Assembly: GCA_963812945.1 (NCBI GenBank)
Contig: CAWEXD010000003.1
Span: forward strand, 62,001-126,000
Origin: DASRDR01 sp963812945 [NCBI: uncultured Candidatus Rokubacteria bacterium]
GTDB lineage: Bacteria > Methylomirabilota > Methylomirabilia > Rokubacteriales
DNA length: 64,000 nucleotides
Direction of reading: 5' to 3'
Each line of letters opens with the position of its first letter. The first letter of the stretch is position 1. Shown here piece by piece: positions 1 to 28,179 of the stretch. Position numbers and translations under genes: made by a program. Below the pieces are notes generated by a model that was given only the letters and a program-made list of their open reading frames with translations, had not been told where the DNA came from and did no database searches.

Positions 1-1040
1 CAACAGGCGGGAATCGAGCGGACTCGTCCCCGACTTCAAGCAACCCTTCCGCGTCAAGACCGGACCGCTCGATCCGCAGATCGCTGCCGGGCAAGGGGTC
101 GAGAGCGCGCAGTCGAAGTAGCCCTGGTACTGGATCCCGTTGGGGCTATCGCAGGTGGCCTTGCTCCGGTCGCCCGTGACCACCAGCCGCGGCGGCGCCG
201 ACCCGCCGGAGCCAGGATTCGGGTACGGGTAGTTCTTGAAGCTCGGGCCCTGGGCTGAACATGTCACCGGCCAACACGGGCTATATTCCCATGCCAGGCA
301 ATTCGCAATGCCCAGGGCCATTGTCGCGCCCGCACCGTGGACCGAAGGATCGATCTCGGAGCACCCCAGCTGGGGCCGAGGCAGGTCGTCGTAGGCGGCG
401 GGGCCGTTCGGGTCGTTGGGATCGGCCGGGGTGATGCTGGGGTTTCCGTTCCGGTTCGCGGGCTCGTTGCAGTAACCCGGGGGATTGTCCTGGCTCGAAT
501 TCGAGCAGACGTGCTTCCAAGGGTTGTCGACCGCCAGAATCGCCCGGACGCGGGCGCGGCCTTGGCCGCCCGCCGCCGTCGCCCATCCGGTGACGACCGC
601 CGTCTCGTTCGTGTCGCGGGCAGGTCCCCCGGCGAGGGCGGGGCCGCCCCAGCATCGCGGGTCCTGGATCGACGCCGGCACGAGGGGGTGCAGTCGTTGT
701 CGATGACCGCGGAGTAGTCCCCCGCCGCCAGCGCGACGCCGTTGAAGAGCAGGTTGGCGAGCCCAGCGCCGCAGCCGGCGTACGAGCCCGAGTTTCCGGG
801 ATCGGTCCACTTGGTGAACCCGCATGGCTCGTTGGCGGCCCCGCGCACGGCGTCCCGCCCGCGCTCGAGGCCGGCCTCGGCCAGGGCCTCGGCCTGCCCC
901 TGGGCCTTGTAGTTGAACCCGGTCATCATCTCGAGCCGCGCCAGGAGCGCGAACGAGAAGCTCAGGATGGCCATGATGAGCATGGCGATGACGGCGATGA
1001 CGAGGACCGATCCCCGCTGGTCACGACGGCTCGCGTTCAT
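1..1040 (-). CDS. pilX: PilX-like minor pilin, 3' truncated by window edge, apparent frameshift
   Basis: Minor type IV pilin thought to sit at or near the pilus tip and to help start assembly. The N-terminus reads QRGSVLVIAVIAMLIMAI: a class III prepilin leader with Gly before the cleavage point and a hydrophobic helix. The Glu usually found at position +5 is absent, as is common in PilX-type proteins. The reading frame is sound from the ATG at 1040 to about residue 117 (DNDCTP), then turns into arginine-rich nonsense. The third frame takes over at the five-C run (plus 690-694) and continues as plausible Cys- and Asn-rich pilin sequence to base 1 without a stop. One extra C in that run would join the two halves. 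It starts 10 bases after the pilW stop. The 3' end lies outside the window. Confidence 0.75.
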
Positions 1041-1050
1041 GGGTCCCCCG

Positions 1051-1887
1051 CTAGGTGCGGTTCCTGAGCGTGACTTCGGTGATGAGCGTGCGGCTCACCG
1101 TCTGCCCCGCGGTCTGCTGCTGCGCCTGGACCGAGATGCGGATGCGTCCGATGTTGTCGGCCTGCGCCTGGCTGGTGAGGGGCAGGGTGAAGGCGTTGTT
1201 GCAGGGGTTGGCCACGCCAGCGCACGGGCCGAAGTTCGGCCGCGGGAAGTACGTGAAGGTGAGGCCGTTGATGTCCACCGCCACCATCGCCACCGGCCCC
1301 GTCCCGTCGTCTCGCGTGATGCACTGGGGCACCCCCGGGGGGCAGTTCGCGGTCGACAAGGCGTAGAGCACGTCCTCCTCGCCCCGGTCCGCCGCGGACG
1401 CCGGTGAGGTGATGGCATTGCCCAGCCCGGCGATCCGACCGTTGTGGTTGCGGTCGGAGCGGATGCGTAGGCGCGTCGCTTGCGCGTCGGCGAACGGGAT
1501 CGCGAAGAGGTTCGTGCAGCCGGCGCCGCCCAGGCCGTTGTTCGTCTGCCAGGTCGGGGTGCCGCTCCCCGCGAGCCGGTTGGTGCACTGGGTCACCTTG
1601 GCCCCGTCGCAGTCCGTCGTCACGGCCGTCGCGTAGTCGAAGGCGCAAGTCGTGGCATCCCGGCCGGTCGACCGGAGCTCCCGGACCATGAAGTCGATGG
1701 CCGCCCGGACGTTCTGCTGGACCTCCGCCGTCTCCGATCCGACGAAGTAGGCCTCCTGGGCCTTGCCCCAGGTGCCGACGACGCCCATCATCACGATCGC
1801 GAAGAGCGCGAGCGTGACGATCAGCTCGGTCAACGTGAGGCCGCGCGCGTCCCGCAGCGGGTGGCCCATGTCGCGCGGGTCCCCCAT
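1051..1887 (-). CDS. pilW: PilW-like minor pilin
   Basis: Minor pilin of 278 residues for the type IV pilus, processed by the PilD encoded three genes upstream. The leader DARGLTLTELIVTLALF has the prepilin peptidase site after Gly with Glu at +5 of the mature protein, then one hydrophobic helix. The rest is a soluble domain with several Cys (around ATTCAF, TTDCDG and PNFGPC) that could form disulfides outside the inner membrane. I chose the ATG at 1887 because it overlaps the pilV stop (TGATG). A second ATG six codons later would also keep the leader. The much longer open frame upstream is low-quality out-of-frame sequence over pilV. Size and position between pilV and pilX fit PilW; the assignment rests on order as much as sequence. 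Confidence 0.8.
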   Translation of the reverse strand: MGDPRDMGHPLRDARGLTLTELIVTLALFAIVMMGVVGTWGKAQEAYFVGSETAEVQQNVRAAIDFMVRELRSTGRDATTCAFDYATAVTTDCDGAKVTQCTNRLAGSGTPTWQTNNGLGGAGCTNLFAIPFADAQATRLRIRSDRNHNGRIAGLGNAITSPASAADRGEEDVLYALSTANCPPGVPQCITRDDGTGPVAMVAVDINGLTFTYFPRPNFGPCAGVANPCNNAFTLPLTSQAQADNIGRIRISVQAQQQTAGQTVSRTLITEVTLRNRT

Positions 1888-2312
1888 CAGTTCGCCCGGA
1901 TCGTCGCGACCGTGGTCCGGTAGATCGGATCCGGCACCGATCCGCTGAACACGACGACCGCGGTGATCGTGGTGGTGGTGCTGGTCGGGGTGCCGACCTG
2001 TACGGCGACGCAGCGCGTGAAGCCAGCGAACGCCGCCACCGGCAGGAGGTTCCCGCTGCCGCTGCAGTCGGCGGGCAGAGTCCCCGAGGAGCCATCGAAG
2101 CTGAGGCTCGCAATGCTCGCGTAGTCGGTGGCCTTCGTCCGTTCGATCGCTTGTTGGGCCAGGAGCGTCGCCGTGGTCTGGAACCCGCTCGCAACCACCC
2201 CGTACATGGCGTACGGGAACGTCGCCGCAAGGGCGAGGAGGGCGATGGCCATGAGGACCATCGCGACCATCAGCTCGACGATCGTGACACCCCGCTGGTC
2301 TCGCCTCCGCAT
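1887..2312 (-). CDS. pilV: PilV-like minor pilin
   Basis: Minor type IV pilin of 141 residues. The leader RRRDQRGVTIVELMVAMV shows the Gly/Val cleavage site and Glu at +5, followed by an Ala/Leu-rich transmembrane helix. The C-terminal part has two Cys (LPADCSG and FTRCVAV) and a Thr-rich strand, as in PilV/GspI-like pilins. The ATG at 2312 gives the expected seven-residue basic leader. Its stop overlaps the pilW start by one base and it begins 14 bases after the stop of the GspH-like gene, so it is part of the same transcript. Confidence 0.82.
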   Translation of the reverse strand: MRRRDQRGVTIVELMVAMVLMAIALLALAATFPYAMYGVVASGFQTTATLLAQQAIERTKATDYASIASLSFDGSSGTLPADCSGSGNLLPVAAFAGFTRCVAVQVGTPTSTTTTITAVVVFSGSVPDPIYRTTVATIRAN

Positions 2313-2326
2313 CGTGCGCGGCTCCG

Positions 2327-2926
2327 TCAGCAGCCGGCGACCCGGACGCCCCCATACAGCGTCACCGTGACGACGCTGAGACAGGCCGGGGGTGAGGTGT
2401 CCACGTTGAACGTCGTGTTCCCGGGCCCGACGGGCGCGATCCGGTTCCCGATCGGGTCGAAGATCAACGTCGGCGCCGTCGTCGAGACGGTGCCGGCGTT
2501 GGAGAAGCCCTGCCAGTCGTAGCCGGAGACGACGGTCCCGTTGCACGCCGGACTGGTGTCCGCCTCCCGGATTCGGTACTGCGTGCGAGGGGGGCCCCCC
2601 GGCCCGAACTCGATGCAATGGTTCGCCCCCTTCGTGATGGCGAGCTGCCGCGCCAGCCGGATCGCGGAGGAGGCTTGCTCGGCAGAGCCCTTCACCAGCA
2701 TGACCTCCCGGACGTTCGACAGATACGGGTACGCCGCGACGGCCAGGAGGGCGGCGGCGGCCAGCACGATCACGAGCTCCACCGCGGTCACGCCGCCCGG
2801 ATGCTCGATGGAACACGCCCACCCGCCGGGCGCGCACCCCGGGACGGTCTGCCCGTGACCCAGCCCGGATGCGGCCGCCGCGCGAGCCCCCGGAGGCCCG
2901 GGGTCCTTCGCGTCAGCCCGCAGCAA
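2327..2926 (-). CDS. fimT: GspH/FimT-family pseudopilin
   Basis: Pseudopilin of the GspH/FimT type. The helix begins at GGVTAVELVIVLAAAALLA, with Gly at the cleavage site and Glu at +5. The C-terminal domain (GYDWQGFSN, TLIFDPIGN, VTVTLYGGVRV) matches the strand pattern of FimT/GspH. With the ATG at 2926 the leader is about 44 residues, unusually long. No ATG, GTG or TTG closer to the cleavage site is in frame, so the start is uncertain. It overlaps the end of the GGDEF gene by 14 bases. It is the first of four consecutive minor pilin genes. Confidence 0.78.
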   Translation of the reverse strand: MLRADAKDPGPPGARAAAASGLGHGQTVPGCAPGGWACSIEHPGGVTAVELVIVLAAAALLAVAAYPYLSNVREVMLVKGSAEQASSAIRLARQLAITKGANHCIEFGPGGPPRTQYRIREADTSPACNGTVVSGYDWQGFSNAGTVSTTAPTLIFDPIGNRIAPVGPGNTTFNVDTSPPACLSVVTVTLYGGVRVAGC

Positions 2927-3806
2927 CCTCGTCGCTCTTCCGCGGGTACGCGGTCACCCGGTTACGGCCCGCCCGCTTCGACTCGTAGAGCGCCTCGTCG
3001 GCCGCCCAGACGATCTCGTCCGGGTTCCGCCCGTCGGCGGGGAACGCCGCCAGCCCGATGCTCACCGTGATCGGATTCAGACTGTCGGGCGCCATGACGC
3101 TCGACTCCACCCGCCGGCGGAACCGCTCGGCGAACACCAGCCCGTCGGCCTTTCCGGTTTCCGGCAGGATGAACGCGAACTCCTCCCCGCCGACCCGGCA
3201 CGGCACGTCGCCCTCGCGGGAGGCCGAGCGCATGAGCGCGCCGAGCGCGCGAAGCACCGAGTCGCCCTTGGGATGGCCGAACTCGTCGTTGAACTTCTTG
3301 AATCCGTCGATGTCGATCATCAGCAGGCTGAACGTGTGCCCGAACCGGCTGGACCGGCTGATCTCCTCCCGGAGACGCAGGTCGAAGCTCCGCCGGTTCC
3401 CGACCTCCGTGAGCTCGTCCGTGTGAGACATCTCGCGGAGGCGGAAGTTCGCCAGCCGGAGCTCCTCCACGATGCCTTCCGCTCGGCCCCCTCTGGCCCG
3501 CGCCCGGTCCAGCTCGTCGTCCAGGCTCCGCTGCATGTTGCCCAGGATGTCGCTGTAGATCACGTAGAAGCCCGCCAACTCGACGAACGCCAGGAACGCC
3601 AGCAGCGCGAAGAAGACGGGCGCCCCCTTCGGGTAGAGGGGGGCCATGACCGTGGTCGGAAGCACCACCGGCAGCCCCAGGTAGACCAGGAGCAAGAGCG
3701 GCATCAGCCCCGCCATGAGGACGGCGAGGAGGAACTTCTTCCGGACGGTGCGGCCGGTCAGGATGCCCTCGCGCCGTCGGCCCGCGGATGTCTCGCGCTC
3801 AGCCAA
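2913..3806 (-). CDS. membrane-bound GGDEF diguanylate cyclase
   Basis: Makes cyclic-di-GMP from two GTP. Of 297 residues, the first about 90 hold two to three hydrophobic segments (residues 24-50 and 62-90), then a short coiled linker, then a GGDEF domain from about 120. The active-site loop is GGEEF at 206-210, an accepted active variant. REGD at 197-200 lies exactly five residues before it, which is the RxxD inhibitory site, so product feedback is expected. The start is a TTG at 3806 that overlaps the end of the peptidase gene by 8 bases; no better start is visible. Lying between pilD and the minor pilins, it probably supplies a local cyclic-di-GMP signal for pilus or PNAG control (inference). 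Confidence 0.88.
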   Translation of the reverse strand: MAERETSAGRRREGILTGRTVRKKFLLAVLMAGLMPLLLLVYLGLPVVLPTTVMAPLYPKGAPVFFALLAFLAFVELAGFYVIYSDILGNMQRSLDDELDRARARGGRAEGIVEELRLANFRLREMSHTDELTEVGNRRSFDLRLREEISRSSRFGHTFSLLMIDIDGFKKFNDEFGHPKGDSVLRALGALMRSASREGDVPCRVGGEEFAFILPETGKADGLVFAERFRRRVESSVMAPDSLNPITVSIGLAAFPADGRNPDEIVWAADEALYESKRAGRNRVTAYPRKSDEVAAG

Positions 3807-4836
3807 GGTACCACTCCAGGATCGGCCGGCCCCAGAGGCTCGCCACGACGCCGCCGAGGGCCAGGAACGGCCCGAAGGGCAGATACTCGCCGAAGTGCCG
3901 GCGGCCCGAGACGAGGAGCGCCGTCGCCGCCACGCCCCCCACCATGATCCCCACGAACGCGGCGACGAGCCCGCCCGTGGCCCCCAACCCTGCTCCGATC
4001 AGTCCGGCCAGCTTGATGTCCCCCCCGCCCAGGCCCGTGCGCCCGAGCGCCACGTGGCTGACCCACGCCACCAGGAAGAACAGCCCGCCCGTCACCAGAC
4101 ACCCGGCCACGACGGCGTCGACCTGGCTCAGCACCCGCCACGCCAGCGGCCAGGCCGCGTTCGTCAGCGTCGCGAGGTCCACGACCGCCAGCTGCCGTCC
4201 GAGCAGCGCGCCCCAGGCCGCCGCCCAGTACACGTCGAGCCGCCGGCGCTCCGCGGGATCGACGTCGTCGTCCGCGTCGGGCGGCGGGGCCGCGTCACCG
4301 CGGGCCGCCGCGCTCCGCGCACGCGCAGCCCGGACCAAGGCGAAGCCGATCGCGCCGAGCGCCGCCCCGGCGCCCCCGCGGGACAGACCCTCGGGAGCGA
4401 GGATGCAGGCGGCGACGACGCCAGGCAGCGTGATCCGGTCCGGGATCCGCCGCGTCTCGAGATCCGTGAACGCCGTCGCGATCATCGCCAAGCATAGCAG
4501 GAACATGCGCAGACCGTCCCAGGTCGGCCCGAGCCGCCAGAGGACCAGCGCGCCCAGCACGATGGCGAGCGCCTCGACGAGCGGATACCGCCACGGGATC
4601 GTCACACCGCACGCCCGGCAGCGCCCGCGGAGGACGAGGTAGGACACGAGCGGGACGTTGTCCACCGCCCGGATGGGAACCCGGCAGCTCGGGCAGTGCG
4701 ACGCAGGGAGCACGATGCTCTCTCCCCGCGGGAGCCGCGAGATGCAGACGTTGAGGAAGCTGCCGAGCACGGCGGCCAGGATCATGCCGAGCGGCCAGGC
4801 CAGGGCGGCCACCGCGGGGGAAAGCGCGCCGGTCAC
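3799..4836 (-). CDS. pilD: prepilin peptidase PilD (A24)
   Basis: Inner-membrane aspartic peptidase that removes the leader from type IV prepilins and methylates the new N-terminus. Residues 1-80 form the N-terminal methylase-type domain with two Cys pairs (CPSC near 48-51, CRAC near 73-76). Catalytic Asp occurs in FTDLETRRIPD (about 125) and in GGGDIKLAG (about 273). The GTG start at 4836 overlaps the upstream stop as GTGA. The two Asp motifs are about 150 residues apart because of an extra charged, Ala/Asp-rich stretch (about 172-200) plus hydrophobic sequence. Usual PilD proteins are about 290 residues; this one is 345. Its substrates are the pilins encoded here. Confidence 0.93.
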   Translation of the reverse strand: MTGALSPAVAALAWPLGMILAAVLGSFLNVCISRLPRGESIVLPASHCPSCRVPIRAVDNVPLVSYLVLRGRCRACGVTIPWRYPLVEALAIVLGALVLWRLGPTWDGLRMFLLCLAMIATAFTDLETRRIPDRITLPGVVAACILAPEGLSRGGAGAALGAIGFALVRAARARSAAARGDAAPPPDADDDVDPAERRRLDVYWAAAWGALLGRQLAVVDLATLTNAAWPLAWRVLSQVDAVVAGCLVTGGLFFLVAWVSHVALGRTGLGGGDIKLAGLIGAGLGATGGLVAAFVGIMVGGVAATALLVSGRRHFGEYLPFGPFLALGGVVASLWGRPILEWYLG

Positions 4837-5141
4837 GGGGCGCCTCCGGCAGCAGCCTCGGCGTAGCGCTGAACGGCGCGCGCGAGAACGTCGGGCCACC
4901 GGCCCGGGTCCTCGAGCGCCCGCCAGCCCTCCGGAGCGAGGAGCCGCTCCACGTCGGCCCGGCTGAGTGTCATCTCCCCGCCGCCCGCGACCAAGACGAA
5001 GTCCCGGAGCGCCGGGAACCGCTCGAAGACGCGAACCGCGCCGGACACGGCGAGGGCGTGGGCGTCGGCCGGTAGCGGCTCCGGCACGCTCACCCGGAGC
5101 GTCGAGCCCGACAGGCCGACGGACCCGATCCACGACCTCAC
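4833..5141 (-). CDS. small conserved-position orphan protein in the pilus operon
   Basis: Encodes 102 residues with no motif I recognise. The middle (VRVFERFPALRDFVLVAGGGEM) looks like a beta-alpha-beta unit, followed by a helical tail (SRADVERLLAPEGW, then DVLARAVQRYAEA). There is no signal peptide or membrane span, so it is probably cytosolic. It is a real gene by context: its GTG start overlaps the HD-GYP stop by 4 bases and its stop overlaps the pilD start by 4 bases, so translation is coupled on both sides. The long open frame reaching further upstream is out-of-frame sequence over the HD-GYP gene. Confidence 0.7.
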   Translation of the reverse strand: MRSWIGSVGLSGSTLRVSVPEPLPADAHALAVSGAVRVFERFPALRDFVLVAGGGEMTLSRADVERLLAPEGWRALEDPGRWPDVLARAVQRYAEAAAGGAP

Positions 5142-6298
5142 GCCAGTACCTTGGCGGGCGTCGTATCCTGCATCAGACGGAGCGTCCGGTCCAGGACCCG
5201 CACCAGCCGCGGATCGAAGGTCCGGCCTGCCTCGTCGCGCACGAACGCGCGCACCTGTTCCACCGGGATCGCCTTCTTGTAGGCGCGACGCGAGGTCATC
5301 GCGTCGAAGACGTCGGCCAGGCACGCGAGACGGCTGACCGGGTGCTGCCGCCAGCCCTCGCGGACGAACGGGTACCCCTTGCCGTCGTACCGCATGTGGT
5401 GCTCGAAGGCCACGATCAGGGGAAGCCGGTTCGACCCTGGCAGGCGAGCCAGGAGATCGGCCCCCAGCACCGGATGCCGGCACATGATCCGCCACTCCTC
5501 GGCGTCGAGGAGGCCCGGCTTCCGGAGCACCTCCAGCGGGATGGCGATCTTGCCCAGGTCGTGGAGCATCCCGGCCATCCCGAGCTCCCGCAGAAGCTCG
5601 GTGGGGAGGCCGAGCGCGAGACCGATTCCCATGGAGATCACCGCGACGTTGACGGAGTGATACAACGTGTACTCATCGTACGACTTGATGCTCGCGAGCC
5701 GTAGCACGAGTCCAGGGGCTTGCAGCATCTGTTCCAGCATCGTGGAGGTGTACACGCGCAGCGCGCCGACCTGCTCGAGGTTGAGCGCCCGCCGGGCGCG
5801 AATCAGCGACTCGATGTCGCGCAAGACCTCGACCGAGCCGTAGTAGGCGCGCCGCGCGACGCCCTCCCCGCTCTGCCGGTCGGGCTGGGTCGGCGGACCC
5901 AGGTGGAGGTGCGAGAGGCGGCGGCGGGCGCACCACTCGCCGATCGACGACCCGACCCCCTGGGTCAGCCCCTCGAGGAGGACGTCGATCTCCCGCGCCT
6001 CCAGTCCGGCCGTGAAACCGACCGACCCGATCCCGTGCTCGTGCTGGCAGGTCTCGAGGAAGTGCCGGTACAGGAGACTCTCGCGCGGCAGGATGCGATC
6101 GTTCGCCACGAGGAGGTCGCCCATGAAACGGTAGGTCAGCCGCCCCTCGACGGCCAGGTAGCCGCTCACGGCCTCGAACAGGGTCCGCTTGGCCCGCTGC
6201 GTCTGGGGGTGGGTCGGCAGATAGAGGCCGGCGGCCCGCAGCATGCCGTGCAGATAGGTGAAGATGAGCTGGGGATCCGGCTGCGGCCCCTCACTCAT
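5138..6298 (-). CDS. HD-GYP domain cyclic-di-GMP phosphodiesterase
   Basis: Predicted to hydrolyse cyclic-di-GMP. Of 386 residues, the first about 115 form a module also present in the neighbouring HEAT protein. The HD-GYP domain spans about 205-375. Visible signature residues are YHSVNV (His 214), GMLHDLGK (His-Asp 246-247), EHHMRYDGKGYP ending near 310, and DVFDAMTSRRAY. All metal-binding positions appear intact, so the enzyme should be active. It lacks a receiver domain and membrane segments. It overlaps the HEAT gene by 8 bases and the small orphan by 4. Together with the GGDEF protein four genes on, the operon can both make and destroy the messenger. Confidence 0.9.
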   Translation of the reverse strand: MSEGPQPDPQLIFTYLHGMLRAAGLYLPTHPQTQRAKRTLFEAVSGYLAVEGRLTYRFMGDLLVANDRILPRESLLYRHFLETCQHEHGIGSVGFTAGLEAREIDVLLEGLTQGVGSSIGEWCARRRLSHLHLGPPTQPDRQSGEGVARRAYYGSVEVLRDIESLIRARRALNLEQVGALRVYTSTMLEQMLQAPGLVLRLASIKSYDEYTLYHSVNVAVISMGIGLALGLPTELLRELGMAGMLHDLGKIAIPLEVLRKPGLLDAEEWRIMCRHPVLGADLLARLPGSNRLPLIVAFEHHMRYDGKGYPFVREGWRQHPVSRLACLADVFDAMTSRRAYKKAIPVEQVRAFVRDEAGRTFDPRLVRVLDRTLRLMQDTTPAKVLA

Positions 6299-8333
6299 CC
6301 TCGGCTTCCTCGGAATCCGGTCGCGCGGCGAGCGCGCTGGCGGCGACCTCGCGCAGCTGGCGCTCGGCCCGTCTCCAGAGCCAGCACCGCCGGGCCAGCC
6401 CCATCAGCGCCGCGCGGGCGCCCGGCGTCACGATCCCCGCCAGCGCCTCGATCGCCTCCCGCCGCAGCGCGAGGTCCGTGGCTCGTGGCGAGGCCCCGCT
6501 CGCGACATCGCGCAGGACCGGAACGGCCTCGTCGCTCCGCAGCCCGCCGAGCGCCCGGACGGCCTCGAGCCGGACCTCGGGGTCCGCGTCCGCCACGAGA
6601 CGCACGAGCGGCGCCACCGCCCGGCGCGGCGCGATCACCGCGACCGCGCGGATCGCCTCGATCCGGACGCGCGGGTGCGCGTGGTCGAGGAGCGACACGG
6701 CCGGCCCGAACGCCGCCTCGTCTCCGATCTTGCCGAGGACGTGGACCAGGTTGCGCACGAGGAACCACCGCGGGTCCTCGAGCAGCTCGAGCAGGACCGG
6801 CACGGCCGGCGGGCCGACCTTGGCCAGCACCTGGCACATCCGGGCTCGGACCTGCCGGTCCGGCTCCTCGGCCAGGAGCGCGGTGAACTCCTGGATCGCC
6901 TCGCGGGCCACCAGGCCGAGGTACTGGGCGCCGAGATCGAGCAGTCGCCCGCTGCTGGCGTGCTGCCGCAGCACGGCCCCCACCTGGGTGACGTGCGCGC
7001 GCCCCGCCAGCCGCTGCTGGAGGGCGGCCAGGTGCTGGGCGTGCTCGCGGCTCCGCGCGCCCCCGGATTCGACGGAGGCCACCATCGTCGAGAGCACGTG
7101 CGTCGCCAGGTCGATGCGCCCTCGGACCAGGGCCTCGCCCACGATCTCCTCGAGGGCGTCCACGGCGGAGGCGCCCTGGTCCTCCCCGTCCACGTTGAGG
7201 ACCAGCGCGAGCAGAACGTCCGCGCTGCGTTCGATCAGGACCTCGGGCTGGCAGGCCGCGAGGATCTCTTCGCGAAGCTCGACGACGAGGGGGTCGTCGG
7301 CGTCGAGCACGAGCGGCGCGTCGCCGAGGAGGCGCGGCGGGTCGTCGTCGTCCCGCACGGCGGAGGTGATCGCCTCGACCAGCCGCTGCCGCTGTATCTC
7401 TTCCCACGGAAACTCGAGGAGCTCGGAGCTCAGCGTCAGAAGGGATTCCTGCGACACGAGGCGCGCCGCCAGGAAACGGAGCTCGTCCTCCGTCATCTGG
7501 CCGAGAAGGTTGAGGGCGAGCACTTCGCGGCCGGCCCCGGGGATGAGGTGCTCGGTCAGGAACGGCCGGAGGAGCTCCTCGGGGAGGCTCAGGAGCGACT
7601 CGACCAAGGTTCGCGTCCGCACCTCGCGATCCGGCGCCTGCTCGGCCAGCCCGTGAAGCATCCGCACTGCCTCGTAGAGACGGCCGGAGTCGCCGCCCGC
7701 GGTCTCCTCGAGCCACGCGGTCAGCGCCGCCCGGTCGTACGTGAGATCGGCGAATCGCGCCTCAACGAGCCCGAGCAGGGTCTCGACGAAGAGATCCACC
7801 GCGTCCCGGCCCGCGTGAAGCTGCCGCCTCGTCGATTCGCTCGGATCGAGATCACTCTCCTCCCCATCGCCAGGCGCCGCGATCCGCACGCGCAGGACTC
7901 CGCGCCGGGACAGGAAGCCGCTTGCCCCGCCGAGCTGCAAGAGCTCCGCGCCGGGCGTGCTCAGGAGCTCGAGGAACGCCTGCAGCTCCCACTCCTCGAC
8001 GGAGGCATCGATCTCGAGCTCTCGGATGCCGCGGCTTTCCAGGTCGAACCGGAAAGCCTCCAGCGTGGGGTCGACGGTGCGGACGTCCGGGCCCGCCCAC
8101 ACGAAGCGGTCCGGGTTTACCCGGATGGGGAAGCACAGGCCCTGCTGGAAGAAGTCACCCAGAGAGCGGTGGAGCCGCCGGACCCAGGTGGAGGCGATCT
8201 CGCTCCCGGCCGGGTACAGGCCGAGTGACTTCCGGGCGGCCATCAGCGCGCGCAGGAACAGCACCAGCACGCGGTCGCCGCCGGCGCTCTCGGACAGGGT
8301 CTGGGCGCGCTCGGCCGCCCCGCGCGCGCTCAT
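6291..8333 (-). CDS. HEAT-repeat protein with N-terminal module shared with the HD-GYP neighbour
   Basis: A 680-residue cytosolic protein of unknown function. Residues about 20-126 resemble the N-terminus of the adjacent HD-GYP protein (see findings). The middle is helical and acidic. The last about 200 residues are HEAT/PBS-type repeats with recurring units such as VPVLLELLEDP, RVRIEAIRAVAVI, PEVRLEAVRALGGL and VPVLRDVAS. HEAT solenoids usually bind proteins, so a scaffolding role for the pilus or cyclic-di-GMP enzymes is plausible but inferred. The start at 8333 overlaps the preceding gene's stop (ATGA). Confidence 0.8.
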   Translation of the reverse strand: MSARGAAERAQTLSESAGGDRVLVLFLRALMAARKSLGLYPAGSEIASTWVRRLHRSLGDFFQQGLCFPIRVNPDRFVWAGPDVRTVDPTLEAFRFDLESRGIRELEIDASVEEWELQAFLELLSTPGAELLQLGGASGFLSRRGVLRVRIAAPGDGEESDLDPSESTRRQLHAGRDAVDLFVETLLGLVEARFADLTYDRAALTAWLEETAGGDSGRLYEAVRMLHGLAEQAPDREVRTRTLVESLLSLPEELLRPFLTEHLIPGAGREVLALNLLGQMTEDELRFLAARLVSQESLLTLSSELLEFPWEEIQRQRLVEAITSAVRDDDDPPRLLGDAPLVLDADDPLVVELREEILAACQPEVLIERSADVLLALVLNVDGEDQGASAVDALEEIVGEALVRGRIDLATHVLSTMVASVESGGARSREHAQHLAALQQRLAGRAHVTQVGAVLRQHASSGRLLDLGAQYLGLVAREAIQEFTALLAEEPDRQVRARMCQVLAKVGPPAVPVLLELLEDPRWFLVRNLVHVLGKIGDEAAFGPAVSLLDHAHPRVRIEAIRAVAVIAPRRAVAPLVRLVADADPEVRLEAVRALGGLRSDEAVPVLRDVASGASPRATDLALRREAIEALAGIVTPGARAALMGLARRCWLWRRAERQLREVAASALAARPDSEEAEDE

Positions 8334-10003
8334 CGGATCGCTCCGGCGCCCGACGGCAGTCCATGGCCCGGCGCCCGCGCGGTGACGCGCGTGTCTCGGA
8401 AGGCTCGCCCGACGCGATGCCCCGACGCGACCGCCCGGCCGCCGGCATCATCGCGAGACAGCCTGGCCAAGCGGTCGAGGAGCGGTCGGTTGGCGTCGGT
8501 CTCCCGGACGAAGACGACCGCCTCCCGCTCGGTGAACACCTGCCGCCAGCCGCCCCGGGCCAGGAGCGTCTCGGTGAGCGGCGAGGGACGCAGGGCGAGG
8601 ATCGTCTGCACCTGCCACTTGTCCAGGACAGCCTGCCAGCGCGGACCGACGTTGGTGACTTCCAGGAAGTCCTTGAGCACGTCGGGGCCGTAGACGTGGG
8701 TGCGGCCGTCCATGAACATCCGGTACTCGGGATACAGTCGCCAGAGCTCGTATCCCGCCCAGGCGTACACGCTGAAGAAGGGCGCGGGCAGCTGGTGCTC
8801 CCGGATGAACATCATGGTCCGTGCCGGGTACCGATCCTCGTGGAGATCCACGCGCAGGGGGTTCGTGGGCGCCCCCGCCATGGCGGCCCAGTATCCCGAG
8901 ACCGCGGCGAGGAGAAGCAGGGCCCCGCCCAGGAGGGGCGCCCCTGGCGCGGTCAGGGTCCGCCCGAGCGAGGGGAGGCGTCGCTCCACCGCTTCGCGGA
9001 CGCGGGCCCACTCGATCCGACGCCCCGTCGCCAGGGCGCCGCCGAGCGCGTCCGCCAACGGTGCCGCGGCCACAATGGCGAACAGCGGCACGTGCCGGAC
9101 CGCGGTCAAGCCGAGATACGCGAACGCGAGGATCAGACCCACGTCCGGAGCGCTCAGTCGCCCCCGGCCCCACGCGAATGCCGGGAACAGCAGGAGCAGC
9201 ATCAGCTCGAGCGGGCGGAAGCCGCCGTGGTGGAAGTTCGGGGGAAACCACTCGATCGTGGAGGTCATGAACGGGACGCTGCTCACCACCTCCAGCGGGA
9301 ACAGGATCGCCCGGACGCCGAAGGGATTGACCAGGCTGGCCGCGGCCGCCAGCATCCCGAGGGCCCCGGTGAGCCAGAGGACGCGCCGGCCGGCGGGACG
9401 CCGCTCACGGTCGAGGAGGAGCGGGAGCGCAGTGCCCAGCCCCATGATCGCGATCAGTACGCCCGCCATCAGAAAGCCGGCGTGGAGGTTCACCCAGACG
9501 ATCACCAGCGCCGGCACCAGCACGAGCGTCCGGCGCCGATCTTCCCAGCCTGGGCGCAGGAGCCACGCCAGGATGGCCACGAAGAGGTACGTGAATGTCT
9601 GGGGCCGCGCATGCCAGAACTCGGCGCCGGTCCAGGCCGCCAGGAGGGTCATCGCGCCGGCCAGGAGCGGATGGACGCCGCGGGCGCGCATCGTCGCCAG
9701 GATCACGGCGAAGGTGGCGGTCACGATCGCGGTCTTCAGCCCGATCAGCGCGAGGCGGCCCCAGCGCTCCCAGAGCACCGTGAACAGCACCTGCGTGGCC
9801 CACATGTGATTGATCCAGGGCCGGCCCTCCGCCGTGTAGGAGAAGGGATCCGTCGTGGGCACCGAGCGCGTCGCGAGAATGCGCTCCCCGGAGGCCAGAT
9901 ACCACCAGAAGTCGAAGACGGTGACGGACGAGACCGCGATCGTCGCCACGGCCAGGAGGGTGGCGCCCCAGAGGGCCCAGCGTACCGCCCGCCCGGCGGT
10001 CAT
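8330..10003 (-). CDS. polytopic GT-C-like membrane protein, paralogue A
   Basis: A 557-residue inner-membrane protein with about ten hydrophobic segments and a soluble C-terminal domain. The first periplasmic loop carries FDFWWYLASGERI and TTDPFSYTAEGRPWINHMW, an acidic/aromatic loop like those of GT-C glycosyltransferases. The C-terminal part contains YPEYRMFMDGRTHVYGP. The next gene encodes a clear paralogue. A role in moving a sugar from a lipid carrier, perhaps onto pilin, fits the location but is inferred; no family assignment is secure. I chose the ATG at 10003 because it overlaps the upstream stop as ATGA; the open frame extending to 10288 is out-of-frame sequence. Confidence 0.72.
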   Translation of the reverse strand: MTAGRAVRWALWGATLLAVATIAVSSVTVFDFWWYLASGERILATRSVPTTDPFSYTAEGRPWINHMWATQVLFTVLWERWGRLALIGLKTAIVTATFAVILATMRARGVHPLLAGAMTLLAAWTGAEFWHARPQTFTYLFVAILAWLLRPGWEDRRRTLVLVPALVIVWVNLHAGFLMAGVLIAIMGLGTALPLLLDRERRPAGRRVLWLTGALGMLAAAASLVNPFGVRAILFPLEVVSSVPFMTSTIEWFPPNFHHGGFRPLELMLLLLFPAFAWGRGRLSAPDVGLILAFAYLGLTAVRHVPLFAIVAAAPLADALGGALATGRRIEWARVREAVERRLPSLGRTLTAPGAPLLGGALLLLAAVSGYWAAMAGAPTNPLRVDLHEDRYPARTMMFIREHQLPAPFFSVYAWAGYELWRLYPEYRMFMDGRTHVYGPDVLKDFLEVTNVGPRWQAVLDKWQVQTILALRPSPLTETLLARGGWRQVFTEREAVVFVRETDANRPLLDRLARLSRDDAGGRAVASGHRVGRAFRDTRVTARAPGHGLPSGAGAIR

Positions 10004-11463
10004 CCGCTCCGCCCGGGAGGGTCGAGCACCGTGGCGATCTTGTCCTCGAAGCGAACCACCCAGCCCGAGGCACGGAGCGCCGACAAAAGGGGAGACCCGC
10101 TGCGCACGATCGCCGCGTCGGGCGCGAGCCGCGCCAGGACGTCCTGCCAGCCGGGTCTGAGCTCGGTCACCGCCAAATGCTCCCCGAACCGCTCGGGGCC
10201 GTAGACGGCCATGCGGCCGTCGATCGACACCCGCAGCTCCGGATAGAGGTGCCAAATCAGGTAGCCGCCCCACACGTACTCGTTCCACAGCCTACCGCGG
10301 CGACCCTCTCGGCGAAGAAAGTCGACAGCGCCGGCCGGAAGGGTCTCGGCCACGCCGAACGCCGGCCGGAACGTCTCCCACACGCGCGCCGGCTGGCGCG
10401 AGCCCGCGACCAGGCTGCAGGACGAGACGACGAGGCCGAGCGCGCCCACCACGACCACCCGCCGAGCCAGGCTCGGGAGCCTTCCCCAGTGCGCCCCGGC
10501 GCAGGACGCGATCGCCCGCCCCAGGATCGGCGTGGCGACGATCACGAGCAGCGGGGTGTTGCGCGTCGCCTGGACCCCCAGGTGAACGAGGGGCACCAGG
10601 ACGGCGAGGTCTCGCCACGGCACGGACCGCGCCGTCCCGAGCGACAGCACCAGCATGAGGCCCAGCATTAGCTCGAGGACGAGGACCTGCGGGTGATTGA
10701 ACGGCGGTGACATCCACTCGAGGATCCAGGCCTGCGAGGGCTGGTCCGCCATGACCCGGAAGGGGAAGAGCAGCGAGTGGTAGTGGAAGGGGTTGGCCAG
10801 CGAGGCCACCACGCACACCACGAACCAGCCGGCGAGCCGGCGGGCGCGGGCGAGGCCACCCGCTCGCCCGGTCTCGTCGCCCAGCACCCAGCCCAGGAAC
10901 TCCCCCCCCGCGCACAGGGCCACGAGCCCGGGCCCGGAGAGAAACCCCGCGTGCATGTTCGCCCAGAGGGCCGTCAGGACCGGCAAGCACCAGAGGCGGT
11001 CCGCGCGCCCCCCCTGGTAGTCGGCCAGGATACGTACGAAGAGGGCGAGGATCAGGAAGGTGACGAGTTGAGGGCGCGGCGACCAGAACCCGTGCGTGGC
11101 CAGGGCCCCGAGGCTCAGGAGCCCGATCGCCCAGCCCAGTCCGACCCCCTCCCGCCGGAGGAGGCCGTACAGCACGCCGAAGGCCAGCACCGCCACGAGG
11201 CCCTGCAGCAGGATGATGCCCGTGGTCCCTGCCAGCGCGTAGATGCCGTAGATGATCAGCTCGAACCCCCAGGCATGATTGAGCCACTCCGATCCCTGCG
11301 CCGTCCCTGAGAATGGGTCCGTGGTCGGGAAGCTCCGGGTCTCCACGATGTAGCGTCCACCTCGTAGAAGCCACCAGAAGTCCGGGTCATCGATCGGCCG
11401 CAACGAAATCAATCCAATCGCCACCAGGAACGCGGCCGGGAGCGCACGGGCGAGCGCGGTCAT
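10000..11463 (-). CDS. polytopic GT-C-like membrane protein, paralogue B
   Basis: A 487-residue multi-spanning membrane protein paralogous to the next gene. Matching blocks include DPDFWWLLRGGRYI, TTDPFSGTAQGSEWLNHAW, WANMHAGFLSG, ASLANPFHYHSLLFPF, ATRNTPLLVIVA and LYPELRVSIDGRMAVYGP. The short loop with Asp-Pro-Asp and Trp residues after the first span resembles the acidic catalytic loop of GT-C enzymes. The ATG at 11463 overlaps the upstream stop (ATGA). It probably works with the GtrB-like and GT39-like proteins encoded just before it, but substrate and acceptor are unknown. Confidence 0.72.
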   Translation of the reverse strand: MTALARALPAAFLVAIGLISLRPIDDPDFWWLLRGGRYIVETRSFPTTDPFSGTAQGSEWLNHAWGFELIIYGIYALAGTTGIILLQGLVAVLAFGVLYGLLRREGVGLGWAIGLLSLGALATHGFWSPRPQLVTFLILALFVRILADYQGGRADRLWCLPVLTALWANMHAGFLSGPGLVALCAGGEFLGWVLGDETGRAGGLARARRLAGWFVVCVVASLANPFHYHSLLFPFRVMADQPSQAWILEWMSPPFNHPQVLVLELMLGLMLVLSLGTARSVPWRDLAVLVPLVHLGVQATRNTPLLVIVATPILGRAIASCAGAHWGRLPSLARRVVVVGALGLVVSSCSLVAGSRQPARVWETFRPAFGVAETLPAGAVDFLRREGRRGRLWNEYVWGGYLIWHLYPELRVSIDGRMAVYGPERFGEHLAVTELRPGWQDVLARLAPDAAIVRSGSPLLSALRASGWVVRFEDKIATVLDPPGRSG

Positions 11464-13127
11464 GCCCGTCCCCGGGCCGGCAGACGGTAGATCCGGATCG
11501 GCGGACCCGGATGCCGGCGCTCGCGGAGCCGCGTGAGGGGCGAGTAGATGTCGCCCACGCGCAGAGCCGCGTCGTCCACGCCCGGCGAGGCGCTGAAGAC
11601 GAGCTCCGCTCGGGCATCCAGATCGGCATAGAAGCGGCACGGTGCGGGATGCCGATCACAGGCCTGGCGGTGACGCTGATAGACGAACCCGGACAGGACG
11701 ACGTACTCCACGCCGTCGCCGACCAGGCGGTCCAGGTCGTAGGTCTCGAGACGCACGAGCCAGTACCCGTCCTCGCGGCCGGACGGGGAAGGCGCGAGAG
11801 CCAGCGGCACGGGCTGCTGGAGCCCGGCCAGCGTCCCGGGCGCCTCGCGAAGCTGCCGCCGGGCGACGGGCAGCGACACGCCGAGGGGCTCGAGCGCGAT
11901 GCGCGTGCCCGGCGGCACCTGGCGCTCGATCCAGCCGGAGCCGAGCTCCCGGGTGTCCGGCCGCCCGAGCAGCCGATGGTACGCGACCACGCGGGCCACG
12001 GCGGGGGCCAAGAGCAGCACCGCCATCGACGCGACGACCGCCGGCGCGATCCTCCGCGGCCGGAGCCACCCGGAACGACTCCCGCGCGCGCCGAGCCAGG
12101 CTCCGATCCGGACCACCGCCACGGCCGCCAGGAGGGTGAGTGTCGGCAAGAGCGGGATCGCGTAGCGCTCGAACCGGGAGCTCCACGTCATGATGACGAC
12201 GAGGTACGGCACGGCGAACGCGAGGAGGACCGCCTCCCGGGCGGCACGCGCCATCACCGCCCACGCGAGCCCCGCCGCCGCGAGAAGGTACACGGGCCAG
12301 CCCATGGCTTCCGGCAGCGAGTAGAGCAGGTGAAAGAGGTAGCCGGGAGCATCCGCCTCGTTGCCGAACTGGACCGTGTGGACCTCGCGGAGCTCGTCGA
12401 ACACGCCTCGAAGGAAGGCGACCGGGGTCAGCAAGGCGAACGGGGTCCCCAGGGCGAAGCCCACGACCGCGAGACCGGCGCCCGCGACCGTGTCCCGGCC
12501 CACGAGGCGGTGCCACGCCGGCCGGCCCGGATGCCGGGCGGCGTGGGCGACCAGGAGGCCCAGGAAGGCGAGGCCGCCGGGATACTTCATGGACGTCGCG
12601 AGCCCGGCCGCGAGCCCGGCCACCCAGGCGTCCCGGGCACGACCGCCACGCCAGTAGCGGAGCGCGCAGAAGGTCGAGAGCGTGACCAGAAAGGTGAGTG
12701 GCACGTCCGTCGTGACCCAGTGCGAGTCCCGAACGTGGAGGAAATCGACGGCCAGCAACCCGGCCGCCAGGATCGCCACCGTCCGGCCGTACGCGAGGCG
12801 CCCGGTGAAGTAAAGGACCGCCAGCGTGGCGGTCCCGAAGAGCGCCGTGAGGACACGGGCCACGAGGTAGAACTGTGCGGGGTTCCGGGCGAACGACCCC
12901 GCCACCCCGTCGGGCGACGGACCGAACACGAGGCCGTAGACGCCCGCCACCACGTACATGTAGAGGCTGGGCCAGTTGAAGAACCGCGGGTTCAGGTCCC
13001 CTTGATGGAAGCGGACCGCCCGTTCCACGATGCGGGGCTCGTCGGGGTGGTACAGGTCGGGCAGGCCATACGAGACGCTCCACGCCCGGAGCGCGAGGCC
13101 GAGTGCGAGAACGAGCGCCAGCCCCAG
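11460..13127 (-). CDS. GT39/ArnT-like membrane glycosyltransferase
   Basis: A GT-C enzyme expected to transfer a sugar from a polyprenyl-phosphate donor on the outer face of the inner membrane. It has about eleven hydrophobic segments. The first loop contains LYHPDEPRIVERAVRF, matching the Asp-Glu catalytic loop of the PMT_2 family, followed by FNWPSLYMYV. A soluble tail follows residue about 430. The start is unclear: the upstream gene stops at 13141, and no ATG, GTG or TTG precedes the first membrane span except at 13322-13331, deep inside the methyltransferase gene. A CTG at 13127 is used here. The end overlaps paralogue B by 4 bases. Confidence 0.8.
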   Translation of the reverse strand: MGLALVLALGLALRAWSVSYGLPDLYHPDEPRIVERAVRFHQGDLNPRFFNWPSLYMYVVAGVYGLVFGPSPDGVAGSFARNPAQFYLVARVLTALFGTATLAVLYFTGRLAYGRTVAILAAGLLAVDFLHVRDSHWVTTDVPLTFLVTLSTFCALRYWRGGRARDAWVAGLAAGLATSMKYPGGLAFLGLLVAHAARHPGRPAWHRLVGRDTVAGAGLAVVGFALGTPFALLTPVAFLRGVFDELREVHTVQFGNEADAPGYLFHLLYSLPEAMGWPVYLLAAAGLAWAVMARAAREAVLLAFAVPYLVVIMTWSSRFERYAIPLLPTLTLLAAVAVVRIGAWLGARGSRSGWLRPRRIAPAVVASMAVLLLAPAVARVVAYHRLLGRPDTRELGSGWIERQVPPGTRIALEPLGVSLPVARRQLREAPGTLAGLQQPVPLALAPSPSGREDGYWLVRLETYDLDRLVGDGVEYVVLSGFVYQRHRQACDRHPAPCRFYADLDARAELVFSASPGVDDAALRVGDIYSPLTRLRERRHPGPPIRIYRLPARGRA

Positions 13128-13140
13128 ACGGACGGTCGAG

Positions 13141-13740
13141 TCAGACCGTCCCGTAGACGATGAGCCAGGGGAAGGCGGTGGTCCGAACGCGGACGGCGAG
13201 CTCGCGCCCGCAGAACGCCGCGAACTCGCGGGCCCCCCAGTGCTGGACGTGGTCCGAGGGATCCCCGAGCCGGGCGAGGTTCTTTCCTCGGAGGAGGTTG
13301 CCAGCCCGGAAGAACGGCTCATGGGGCACACTGATGAGGCAGCCGACGCGAGCCACCCGCCGGAGCTCCCGGAGCGCGCGCAACGGCTCGGGCAGATGCT
13401 CCAGAACCTCGAGGCACACCACGAGGTCGAAGCACTGGTCCCCGAAGGGCAGCTCGCATGCGTCCCCTCTCACGAGCGTAGCGCCCGGGCAGCGCACGCG
13501 CGCCTGCCTGAGCGCCGTCTCATCGAGCTCGAGCCCGTCGAATCGGGTTCCCGGCAGGCGCTCGGCCAGGGTCGCCAAGACGACGCCCTCGCCGCAGCCG
13601 ACTTCCAGCACGCGGCGAGGGCTCTGGGTGGCGGCCAGCTCCGATACCCGCTGCAGGAAGCGCCCGACCAGGTACCGGACGACCGGGTTCTTCGACCGAT
13701 ACTTCCCCTCGTTATCGCTCCGCTGGGCCCCGGCGATCAA
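13141..13740 (-). CDS. class I SAM-dependent methyltransferase
   Basis: A 199-residue cytosolic methyltransferase of the Methyltransf_11/25 type. The SAM-binding motif I is VLEVGCGEGVVLATLAE; the acidic strand-2 end is DGLELDE; the later motif is FDLVVCLEVLEHLPEPL. It probably modifies a sugar or lipid-linked intermediate made by the surrounding glycosyltransferases (inference from position). The start is a TTG at 13740 that overlaps the stop of the GT2 gene as TTGA. An ATG much further upstream lies out of context over the GT2 gene. Confidence 0.85.
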   Translation of the reverse strand: MIAGAQRSDNEGKYRSKNPVVRYLVGRFLQRVSELAATQSPRRVLEVGCGEGVVLATLAERLPGTRFDGLELDETALRQARVRCPGATLVRGDACELPFGDQCFDLVVCLEVLEHLPEPLRALRELRRVARVGCLISVPHEPFFRAGNLLRGKNLARLGDPSDHVQHWGAREFAAFCGRELAVRVRTTAFPWLIVYGTV

Positions 13741-14675
13741 TCCAGTCGGCGCCGGATGGAGACGTCGTCGGAGCTCCGCGCCTGGTAGCTCAGCACCAGC
13801 TCGCTGAGGAGTCCGACGGCGAAGAACTGCACCCCGACCAGCATGCTCAGCACACCGAAGGCCAGGAGCGGCCGCTGGCCGATTGGCTGGGCGCCCGACA
13901 ACCAGATGCCGGTGAGGTAGAGGTTCACGCCGAACCCCACCGTCCATGCGATCAGCCCGAGCCCTCCGAAGAGGTGGAGGGGTCGCCGCGTGTACCGGGT
14001 GAGGAACAGCACCGTCAGGAGGTCCAGGAAACCGCGCCAGAGCCGGGCCGAACCGAACTTCGATCGGCCGTACCGGCGCGGGCGATGGTGCACGGGCACC
14101 TCGGTGACCTGGAAACCGCGCCAGGCGGCGAGGGCCGGAATGAAACGATGGAGCTCTCCGTACAGCCGGAGCTCCTCGACCACCTCTCGCCGGTAGATCT
14201 TGAGGCCCGAGTTGAAGTCGTGGAGCCGGATCCCGGTCAGGAAGCCGGTGACCCAGTTGAACAGCCGGGACGGCCAGGTCTTGGACCGTGGGTCCTGACG
14301 ATCCTGCTTCCAGCCCGATACCAGGTCGAAGCCATCCTCGAGGCGGGCAAGGAGCTTGGGCACCTCGGCAGGATCGTCCTGGAGATCGGCGTCCAGAGTG
14401 ACGATGACGTCTCCCTGCGCCTCGCGGAAGCCCACGGCCAGCGCTGCGGCCTTGCCGAAGTTGCGTCGGAGCTGCAGGCCGCGAACTCGGGGGTCCTCGA
14501 GCCGGAGCTTCTCCACCCGCTCGAAGGACCCGTCGCGGCTGCCGTCGTCGACGAAGAGGATCTCGTACGGACGACCGAGGCGCGTGAGCACCTCGGTCAG
14601 CTCGCGGTGGAGGACGCCCAGGCTCTCGACCTCATCGAGGATCGGCAGGACCACCGACACCTCGATCTGAGCCAA
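13737..14675 (-). CDS. GtrB/ArnC-like polyprenyl-phosphate glycosyltransferase (GT2)
   Basis: Predicted to load a sugar from a nucleotide donor onto undecaprenyl phosphate. The GT-A domain shows VSVVLPILDE, FVDDGSRDGS, LDADLQDDP and KQDRQDP. Two C-terminal hydrophobic segments (GGLGLIAWTVGFGVNLYL and LLAFGVLSMLVGVQFFAV) are typical of GtrB/DPM1-like enzymes. The 312-residue length is normal. The TTG at 14675 is chosen because GGGGGAGG lies 7 bases upstream; the longer frame runs into pilA. A GtrB-like enzyme followed by GT-C proteins is the usual two-step arrangement for glycosylation from lipid-linked sugars. Confidence 0.87.
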   Translation of the reverse strand: MAQIEVSVVLPILDEVESLGVLHRELTEVLTRLGRPYEILFVDDGSRDGSFERVEKLRLEDPRVRGLQLRRNFGKAAALAVGFREAQGDVIVTLDADLQDDPAEVPKLLARLEDGFDLVSGWKQDRQDPRSKTWPSRLFNWVTGFLTGIRLHDFNSGLKIYRREVVEELRLYGELHRFIPALAAWRGFQVTEVPVHHRPRRYGRSKFGSARLWRGFLDLLTVLFLTRYTRRPLHLFGGLGLIAWTVGFGVNLYLTGIWLSGAQPIGQRPLLAFGVLSMLVGVQFFAVGLLSELVLSYQARSSDDVSIRRRLD

Positions 14676-14707
14676 TGGGCGTCCTCCCCCGCTCGCGTTG
14701 CTGATGC

Positions 14708-15046
14708 CTACGGGCAATCGTTCAGAGTCGCGGAGAAGTCGATCTTGCCGTTGTTCTTGTCGTAGGTCCGGGTACCGCCGGTGCACTGCCACGTCGGGGT
14801 CGGGGTCACCAGGCCCTCGACGCTCGCGATCGCCGACGGGAAGCTGCCGTTGTGCTTGCCGTAGTAGATGGCGACACCGGACCGCATGGCGGCCACGTTG
14901 CCCTGGTCGGCGGCAAGCTTGGCCTTCTTCTGGATGTCCTGGAACACGGTGATTGCGACCGCGGCGATGATAGCAATGATCGCCACGACCACCATGAGCT
15001 CGACGAGGGTCAAGCCCTTTTGGCTACGAAGCTGCTGCCTGAACAT
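14708..15046 (-). CDS. pilA: major type IV pilin PilA
   Basis: Structural subunit of the pilus. It is a short 112-residue prepilin with an 11-residue basic leader ending SQKG, then LTLVELMVVVAIIAIIA: Glu at +5 and a perfect pilin helix. The C-terminal domain is compact with two Cys (WQCTGG and LNDCP) that probably close the disulfide loop. The start at 15046 has GAGGAGG 7 bases upstream. It lies immediately downstream of pilR and a sigma-54-type promoter, the classical PilSR-dependent arrangement. It is the first gene after that promoter, so pilin should be the most strongly expressed product of the series. Confidence 0.95.
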   Translation of the reverse strand: MFRQQLRSQKGLTLVELMVVVAIIAIIAAVAITVFQDIQKKAKLAADQGNVAAMRSGVAIYYGKHNGSFPSAIASVEGLVTPTPTWQCTGGTRTYDKNNGKIDFSATLNDCP

Positions 15047-15125: not shown

Positions 15126-15141
15126 AGCAATTCCGGTGCCG
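15126..15141 (-). promoter_or_regulatory. sigma-54-type promoter of pilA
   Basis: On the minus strand the sequence reads CGGCACCGGAATTGCT. It has GG and GC exactly 10 bases apart and matches the -24/-12 consensus TGGCAC-N5-TTGCW at all but the first base. Transcription would start near 15115, giving a leader of about 70 bases before the pilA ATG. The adjacent pilR encodes a sigma-54 activator with an intact GAFTGA loop, which strongly supports the call. Confidence 0.8.
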
Positions 15142-26209: not shown

Positions 26210-26265
26210 GAAGAACCCGGCGGCCCGCGCGGGCGCGCCTGAAATAGACAAGGAGAGACTCAGAC

Positions 26266-28179
<1,914 letters not shown>

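Follow-up and report, generated by a model that had tools for sequence, protein, structure and literature searches.

The 64,000-nucleotide stretch analyzed here (the window: contig CAWEXD010000003.1, positions 62,001 to 126,000, from an uncultured Candidatus Rokubacteria bacterium) carries on its minus strand a type IVa pilus operon in which the major pilin gene, pilA, is directly followed by a block of sugar genes. These encode a GtrB-like glycosyltransferase, a methyltransferase, an enzyme resembling glycosyltransferase family 39 (GT39), and two paralogous membrane proteins, GTC1 and GTC2. We read the block, with slightly better than even confidence, as a pilin-decorating cassette within the operon. 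Pilin decoration is the best reading of the data, and it rests more on the linkage of the GTC1/GTC2 family to pilin genes than on the annotation of the enzymes. An initial annotation of the window had proposed that the operon carries its own complete glycosylation pathway; this proposal gains from the finding that the family is linked to pilin and pilus loci in other lineages, while the completeness of the pathway and the label GT-C (glycosyltransferase fold class C) given to the paralogues are unsupported or overstated.

Operon layout and sugar genes

The operon runs through pilB, pilT, pilC, pilS, and pilR (22481-15299), continues after a 252-base gap with pilA (14708-15046, a 112-residue major pilin; Pfam N_methyl, E 9.4e-9), and then extends over fourteen genes to the window edge. 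The joint presence of pilB, pilT, pilC, pilS, pilR, pilA, the prepilin peptidase gene pilD, and minor pilin genes identifies it as a type IVa pilus operon. The initial annotation had omitted pilB to pilR, which lie on the same strand directly upstream of pilA. The order and strand that it gave for the genes after pilA are confirmed, namely gtrB, methyltransferase, GT39-like, GTC1, GTC2, HEAT-repeat protein, HD-GYP protein, orphan, prepilin peptidase, GGDEF protein, and four minor pilins, and so is the tight spacing that it described. With start codons of our own choice among ATG, GTG, and TTG, ten of the fourteen junctions overlap by 1-14 nucleotides (4, 4, 4, 4, 8, 4, 4, 8, 14, and 1) and three are gaps, of 32 (pilA to gtrB), 14, and 10 nucleotides; the size of the methyltransferase-GT39 junction is not assignable, because the start of the GT39-like gene is ambiguous. 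The operon is real as a gene arrangement, and the block would be expected to be read as one transcript. No RNA family or tRNA was detected in the 64-kb window.

The family assignments of the first three sugar genes, already made in the initial annotation, are solid by Pfam. The gtrB gene (13737-14675, minus strand, TTG start chosen) matches Glycos_transf_2 (E 4.3e-29), a family 2 glycosyltransferase (GT2) assignment above cut-off. Lipid-phosphate synthase models stay below their cut-offs, the name GtrB being given by similarity; the best NCBIfam model is an undecaprenyl-phosphate 4-deoxy-4-formamido-L-arabinose (Ara4FN) transferase, which we take to be ArnC (E 3.1e-55, 187 bits versus a cut-off of 529). 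The S-adenosylmethionine-dependent methyltransferase (13141-13740, minus strand) matches Methyltransf_11 (E 1.2e-20). The GT39/PMT-like protein (11460-13139, minus strand, 13139 being an arbitrary start) matches PMT when taken over 11460-13322 (E 3.8e-14; 53.3 bits versus a cut-off of 22.7), and a PDB search returns three protein O-mannosyltransferases (E 7.8e-5 to 0.0014). Its frame contains no ATG, GTG, or TTG between 13322 and 13028, a point overlooked in the initial annotation; either the gene uses an unusual start codon or the sequence contains an error.

A glycosyltransferase gene beginning, with the chosen start, 32 bases past the major pilin gene recalls TfpO and TfpW of Pseudomonas aeruginosa, which the accessible part of PMC11841053 describes as pilin glycosyltransferases going with the major pilin gene, TfpW being termed a GT-C arabinosyltransferase in the title of a work that it cites. 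TfpO and TfpW are single accessory genes in that source, whereas the window has gtrB, a methyltransferase, a GT39-like gene, and two genes for unclassified membrane proteins together, followed later by pilD and the minor pilins. In the accessible part of PMC7762298, the pilin glycosylation protein named belongs to a different locus, and no such block is mentioned.

The GTC1/GTC2 family and its linkage to pilus loci

GTC1 (10000-11463) and GTC2 (8330-10003), both on the minus strand, are 34% identical over 496 aligned positions (E 7e-75) and are the first and second operon members of an uncatalogued family linked to type IV filaments. Neither matches any Pfam family. The family as a whole has no Pfam, NCBIfam, or PDB assignment, and a profile of 29 members gave no PDB match at E up to 10. 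When the 29 members were compared with family models, one matched PMT_2 (E 0.0019) and one LA_3751 (E 0.0078), with the remaining hits mainly to TPR-type models. In profile comparisons, the family gave E 0.086 with the window GT39-like protein, scarcely better than the 0.16 with a YfhO protein, 0.19 with a Wzy_C protein, and 0.5 with PilC. A BLAST match between GTC1 and the GT39-like protein (27% over 145 residues, E 0.001, two sequences without composition correction) was not counted as homology.

The earlier label GT-C-like is therefore without sequence or profile homology and draws on topology and motif. The members are polytopic and have the core DxDxWWHL...IPxxDxFSxT...EW...WVNLHGGF...NPxG...EWxxP...FxDGRxDxYG, in which D-x-D-x-W-W stands right after the first transmembrane segment. 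Because GT-C enzymes have such a motif at this position, the family is likely of the GT-C type.

The sequence searches indicate that the family is widespread, and no catalogued assignment was found for it. With GTC2 as query, matches at E 1e-3 or better occur in 76 of 247 genomes of the Acidobacteriota (here the phylum group of the genome that locus L001 comes from, recorded under the title Acidobacteria), and some of these genomes have five or six. At E 1e-8, members were found in 5 of 300 Chitinilyticum-order genomes (the order being the group of the source of L002; Betaproteobacteria, Neisseriales at NCBI) and in 17 of 194 genomes from the phylum of a genome titled 'PVC group'. Viral contigs yielded no further members; other queries gave one distant locus there for gtrB and none for PilT. 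All plasmid matches of PilT and GTC2 were below 60%.

In 12 of the 44 Acidobacteriota genomes with places for both genes, a family member lies on the pilC strand within 10 kb downstream of this gene, at distances of 5.5-8.6 kb, with 0.107 such places expected under random placement; the 44 are the 76 positive genomes minus 32 without a listed pilC place, split hits of one gene having been merged by hand. In the type A layout (G158, G220, G024, G133, G174, and G206, and in part G076 and G097), pilS-pilR is followed by a YfhO-like gene and the family member, and in six genomes pilA comes directly after, then a Wzy_C ligase-like gene. G220 (L074) was seen separately and is outside the 12 linked genomes, its contig ending before pilC; no YfhO gene was labelled in G076. 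In type B (G007, G023, G050, G063, and G114), pilC-pilS-pilR is followed by gtrB, an asparagine synthase-like gene, and the family member, which in G023 and G114 runs into the end of the contig. Here, gtrB is 39-41% identical to the window gtrB in the four loci measured, and methyltransferases are also present in G050 and G063.

In Acidobacteriota, Wzy_C ligase genes stand beside pilA in nine of 40 surveyed pil loci and in the six type A loci with pilA in view, the Pfam assignment having been obtained at one locus. These ligases, presumably PglL/TfpO-like, resemble the window block as variable sugar genes in the same place of the pil operon, but no Wzy_C match was found by Pfam among the ten window block proteins scanned. 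Sugar genes are thus a recurrent, variable part of pil loci. Relatives that keep the pilus genes without the sugar block, which the initial annotation had named as evidence against its proposal, were found in part: no family member was detected in L126-L134, nine loci picked for having none near pilC, or in L165-L204, the 40 surveyed loci, from which family-linked loci already fetched were excluded and of which four are under 12 kb. This result fits a variable decoration cassette and does not show absence of function. The sampled relatives are distant, the best PilC identity being 53% among the matches listed for 396 Acidobacteriota genomes, 45% in 50 genomes from the phylum of a Deferribacterales-labelled metagenome-assembled genome, and 47% in one of two contig scans (fifteen loci), the other of which gave none.

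The linkage extends to Tad/Flp pili. Sixty family neighbourhoods were chosen by hand from the list of GTC2 matches, other pil-linked places being fetched apart, and 19 of them contain at least two of cpaF, cpaB, cpaC, tadB, and tadC, as against none of 49 control windows, which are pil loci and not random DNA. Two of the 60 are themselves pil loci (L060 and L064). By Pfam, L055 and L056 do carry Tad/Flp pilus genes, and L053 carries a T2SSE ATPase. These three loci supplied the Tad profiles, so that L055 and L056 match by construction. At L247 and L248, two loci from the five positive Chitinilyticum-order genomes, the family member is followed by a methyltransferase, and two Flp pilin-like open reading frames (ORFs) lie beside it on the opposite strand; the one pilin tested matches Pfam Flp_Fap (E 1e-11). 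Plasmid pSTJ1 of Sulfuricystis multivorans (L206:4081-9419) carries a GT2 gene (30% identical to window gtrB, E 1e-40), a methyltransferase, GtrA, and two tandem family members, adjoining the conjugation genes TraF/TraH/TraG.

Two trees of the family were compared. In the careful tree (41 rows), 11 pil-locus members form one clade (support 99/95) and the window pair stands elsewhere as sisters (80/89), the nearest rows by path, after each other, being L019 and L020 from Tad loci. In the quick tree (76 rows), the pil-locus members split in two groups and the window pair is not joined; both window proteins fall in an unstarred branch (Shimodaira-Hasegawa-like approximate likelihood ratio test, SH-aLRT, 90) with eight type A members and 22 others. 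Neither tree firmly supports the idea, which was considered, that the window pair and the pil-locus members go back to one origin.

Pilus, cyclic di-GMP, and regulatory genes

The genes upstream of pilA, all on the minus strand, are pilB (20778-22481; Pfam T2SSE E 2.5e-142, MshEN E 1.2e-21), pilT (19658-20749; T2SSE E 1.4e-42, 53-64% identical to PilT pieces from Acidobacteriota pil loci), pilC (18406-19635; T2SSF E 1.7e-66), the sensor kinase gene pilS (16716-18377; HATPase_c, HisKA, and 6TM_PilS), and the sigma-54 activator gene pilR (15299-16711; Sigma54_activat E 2.1e-70, HTH_8). Downstream, on the same strand, are pilD (3799-4836; A24_N_bact E 7.9e-33 and Peptidase_A24) and the four minor pilin genes: mp1, GspH/FimT-like (2327-2926; GspH E 1.4e-5); mp2 and mp3, taken as PilV-like and PilW-like from their positions (1887-2312, N_methyl E 4.2e-8, and 1051-1887, N_methyl E 8.8e-6); and mp4, PilX-like, which runs off the window (1-1040; PilX_N E 0.025, below cut-off). 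The N-methylation motif is above the Pfam cut-off in pilA, mp2, and mp3. In mp4, a frame change overlooked in the initial annotation lies between about 560 and 700, as third-position GC is 0.94 in the frame of the start over 700-1040, while over 1-560 a different frame has 0.82-0.86; it could be a sequencing fault or a truly broken gene. The 102-residue orphan (4833-5141, minus strand) matches no Pfam or NCBIfam family. Its single-sequence model has a predicted local distance difference test score (pLDDT) of 86.5, and the best structural matches (Foldseek E 0.11; VIA Z 6.2 over 53 residues) are not convincing; for this reason no function is proposed.

The cyclic di-GMP (c-di-GMP) genes, also on the minus strand, encode a HEAT-repeat protein (6291-8333; HEAT_2 E 7.5e-26), an HD-GYP phosphodiesterase (5138-6298; HD_5 E 6.4e-22), and a membrane GGDEF diguanylate cyclase (2913-3806; GGDEF E 5.8e-43). 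By the motifs read in the sequences, both enzymes appear catalytically intact: the phosphodiesterase has the HD, HH, and GYP motifs, and the cyclase has GGEEF with RxxD five residues before it, in agreement with the intact inhibitory site of the initial annotation. The N-terminal part of the HEAT protein matches those of HD-GYP proteins in L137 (E 3e-7) and L161 (E 4e-5), which points to a common N-terminal domain in the two kinds of protein. An HD-GYP relative lies within about 4 kb of the HEAT gene at 10 of 30 HEAT-matching Acidobacteriota loci, which are too short for wider surroundings to be seen. HEAT and HD-GYP genes also overlap as pairs in Acidobacteriota (L142:13-3554, L135:36-3507, and L137:91-3905).

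The nearest receptor candidate for c-di-GMP is PilB. As in the pilus ATPases controlled through MshEN that are described in the accessible part of PMC5013675, the window PilB has this domain, made up of two 24-residue units joined by a 5-residue linker. The motif given there, RLGxx(L/V/I)(L/V/I)xxG...LxxxLxxQ, is expected once in each unit, but the window PilB has all four motif glycines and several further residues replaced: in unit 1 the glycines have become L and N and two leucines A and T, and in unit 2 the glycines have become S and A and the glutamine K. Given these replaced glycines, binding of c-di-GMP by PilB is doubtful. A PilZ-like pattern was matched once, around and upstream of the chosen gtrB start within the gtrB ORF, and was rejected.

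These genes are also rare at other pil loci. HD-GYP was found in 2 and pilD in 11 of the 40 surveyed loci. As far as the stretches reach, the 62 other pil loci (the 40 and 22 others, five of which are under 12 kb) include no HEAT gene, two with HD-GYP, one with GGDEF (L133), and none with the full gene order of the window; some relatives may escape the single-sequence profiles used for GGDEF, HEAT, and pilD. The c-di-GMP genes give the impression of a local addition to the pil locus, and the circuit proposed in the initial annotation is overstated in view of this rarity and of the lost PilB glycines.

A sigma-54-like -24/-12 site (15126-15141, minus strand) was located by pattern scan about 80 bases before pilA, with one mismatch to the consensus. 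At up to two mismatches, the pattern occurs 14 times in the window versus 14.7 expected, and since there is no excess the site rests on its place and strand only. Sigma-70 promoters and terminators in the window show no excess over shuffles. Directly upstream of pilB lies a single-domain response-regulator-like ORF (22510-22974), preceded by another sigma-54-like site.

Elsewhere in the window, a second sugar region (40341-51307) contains a methyltransferase, GT2 and family 4 (GT4) glycosyltransferases, a PMT_2 protein, and a protein whose resemblance to XrtA-associated glycosyltransferases stays below the cut-off. A poly-N-acetylglucosamine-type cluster (56452-62055) has PgaA above the NCBIfam cut-off, a polysaccharide deacetylase, and GT2 genes. 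The Pfam match to 'NAD-GH' at 26260-28929 (E 1.6e-181) is antisense to a plus-strand ORF at 26266-28179, presumably dnaK, and reflects a misleading family model.

Proposed pilin decoration and its rivals

In the pilin-decorating reading, GtrB would load a sugar onto polyprenyl phosphate and the methyltransferase would probably methylate it. The GT39-like protein and the two paralogues, as putative glycosyltransferases, may then use the lipid-linked sugar outside the inner membrane, a short glycan being built on or transferred to PilA and/or the minor pilins, the presumed acceptors, before assembly. PilS/PilR with sigma-54 probably turn on pilA and the block together, and the HD-GYP/HEAT and GGDEF proteins would be co-expressed c-di-GMP enzymes with a looser link to the pilus. 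A broader proposal, to which we give somewhat less than even confidence, is that the family of GTC1 and GTC2 consists of undescribed membrane enzymes adding sugar to type IVa and Tad/Flp subunits across phyla, often together with a methyltransferase, and that the window pair has diverged and works with GtrB and GT39 in one pilus operon.

A three-component Gtr system consists of GtrA, GtrB, and a type-specific transferase. The window block resembles it in having a GtrB-like synthase and polytopic membrane proteins of transferase-like size, and differs in its extra methyltransferase and GT39-like protein, the likely target being pilin. It also lacks GtrA, present in the plasmid version: no match to this flippase was found by Pfam among the ten block proteins scanned, and the claim of a complete route from donor loading to transfer was overstated.

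Besides the absence of a GtrA match, several observations weigh against pilin decoration. Single weak matches at most connect GTC1 and GTC2 to GT-C enzymes by homology. The motif His, invariant in 27 of 27 other aligned members, is Leu in GTC1 and Tyr in GTC2, and a frequent Glu (18 of the 27) is Ala and Met, respectively; because of these replacements, the activity of the pair could be altered. A structure prediction of GTC1 from the two window paralogues alone reached a pLDDT of 37.5 and was not used. Neither tree places the window pair firmly with the pil-locus members, for which reason the pilus linkage may have arisen more than once. In type B loci, no pilin gene lies between pilR and gtrB. 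By the rule used, 39 of the 60 neighbourhoods (including L053, with cpaF alone) show no Tad locus and no type IVa locus; 12 of the 60 span less than 15 kb. No pilus gene was seen in the neighbourhood on an Azospira plasmid or in two loci of about 4 kb each from the 'PVC group' phylum, one of which has a gtrB-like gene on the other strand.

Two alternatives are, in our estimate, unlikely to a similar degree. The block may decorate envelope lipid or polysaccharide and be only co-transcribed with the pilus genes. Lipid A modification by ArnC and ArnT likewise combines a GT2 synthase with a GT39-like transferase, GT39/PMT-like enzymes include lipid A transferases, and the best NCBIfam model of gtrB is the Ara4FN transferase. 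However, the score of gtrB is far under the cut-off of this model, the genes stand in a pilus context, and the paralogue family shows linkage both to two classes of pilus locus and to ORFs for Flp pilins. Alternatively, the paralogues may serve type IV filaments as assembly factors or chaperones in the membrane, while the glycosyltransferases next to them act separately. Such a role would agree with the lack of clear glycosyltransferase homology, with a linkage that tracks pilus genes, and with the 17 of 19 Tad-locus neighbourhoods that have no gtrB match in view (the exceptions being L230 and L240), but it is opposed by the DxD-like motif after the first membrane segment and by the genes for GtrB, a methyltransferase, or GtrA that accompany members in the window, in type B loci, on pSTJ1, and in the Chitinilyticum order. 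We give little credence to the idea that pilus, sugar, and c-di-GMP genes came together by chance and are not functionally coupled. It would suit the absence of the full order from the 62 other pil loci as far as read, and the presence of HD-GYP relatives at 10 of 30 HEAT-matching Acidobacteriota loci when no HEAT gene was found at the 62, but not the ten overlapping junctions or the repeated association of the family with pilus loci.

Most knowledge of pilin glycosylation comes from a few model genera. A search of titles and abstract openings, with subscription papers mostly outside it, gave no description of this membrane family or operon layout, and no report of glycosylated Tad/Flp pilins was found at the same depth. 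If the proposal for the GTC1/GTC2 family is true, a family beside the pilins of two filament classes would offer a testable, sequence-based way into pilin modification in little-studied phyla, and it could account for one group of the 'hypothetical protein' genes in pilus loci.

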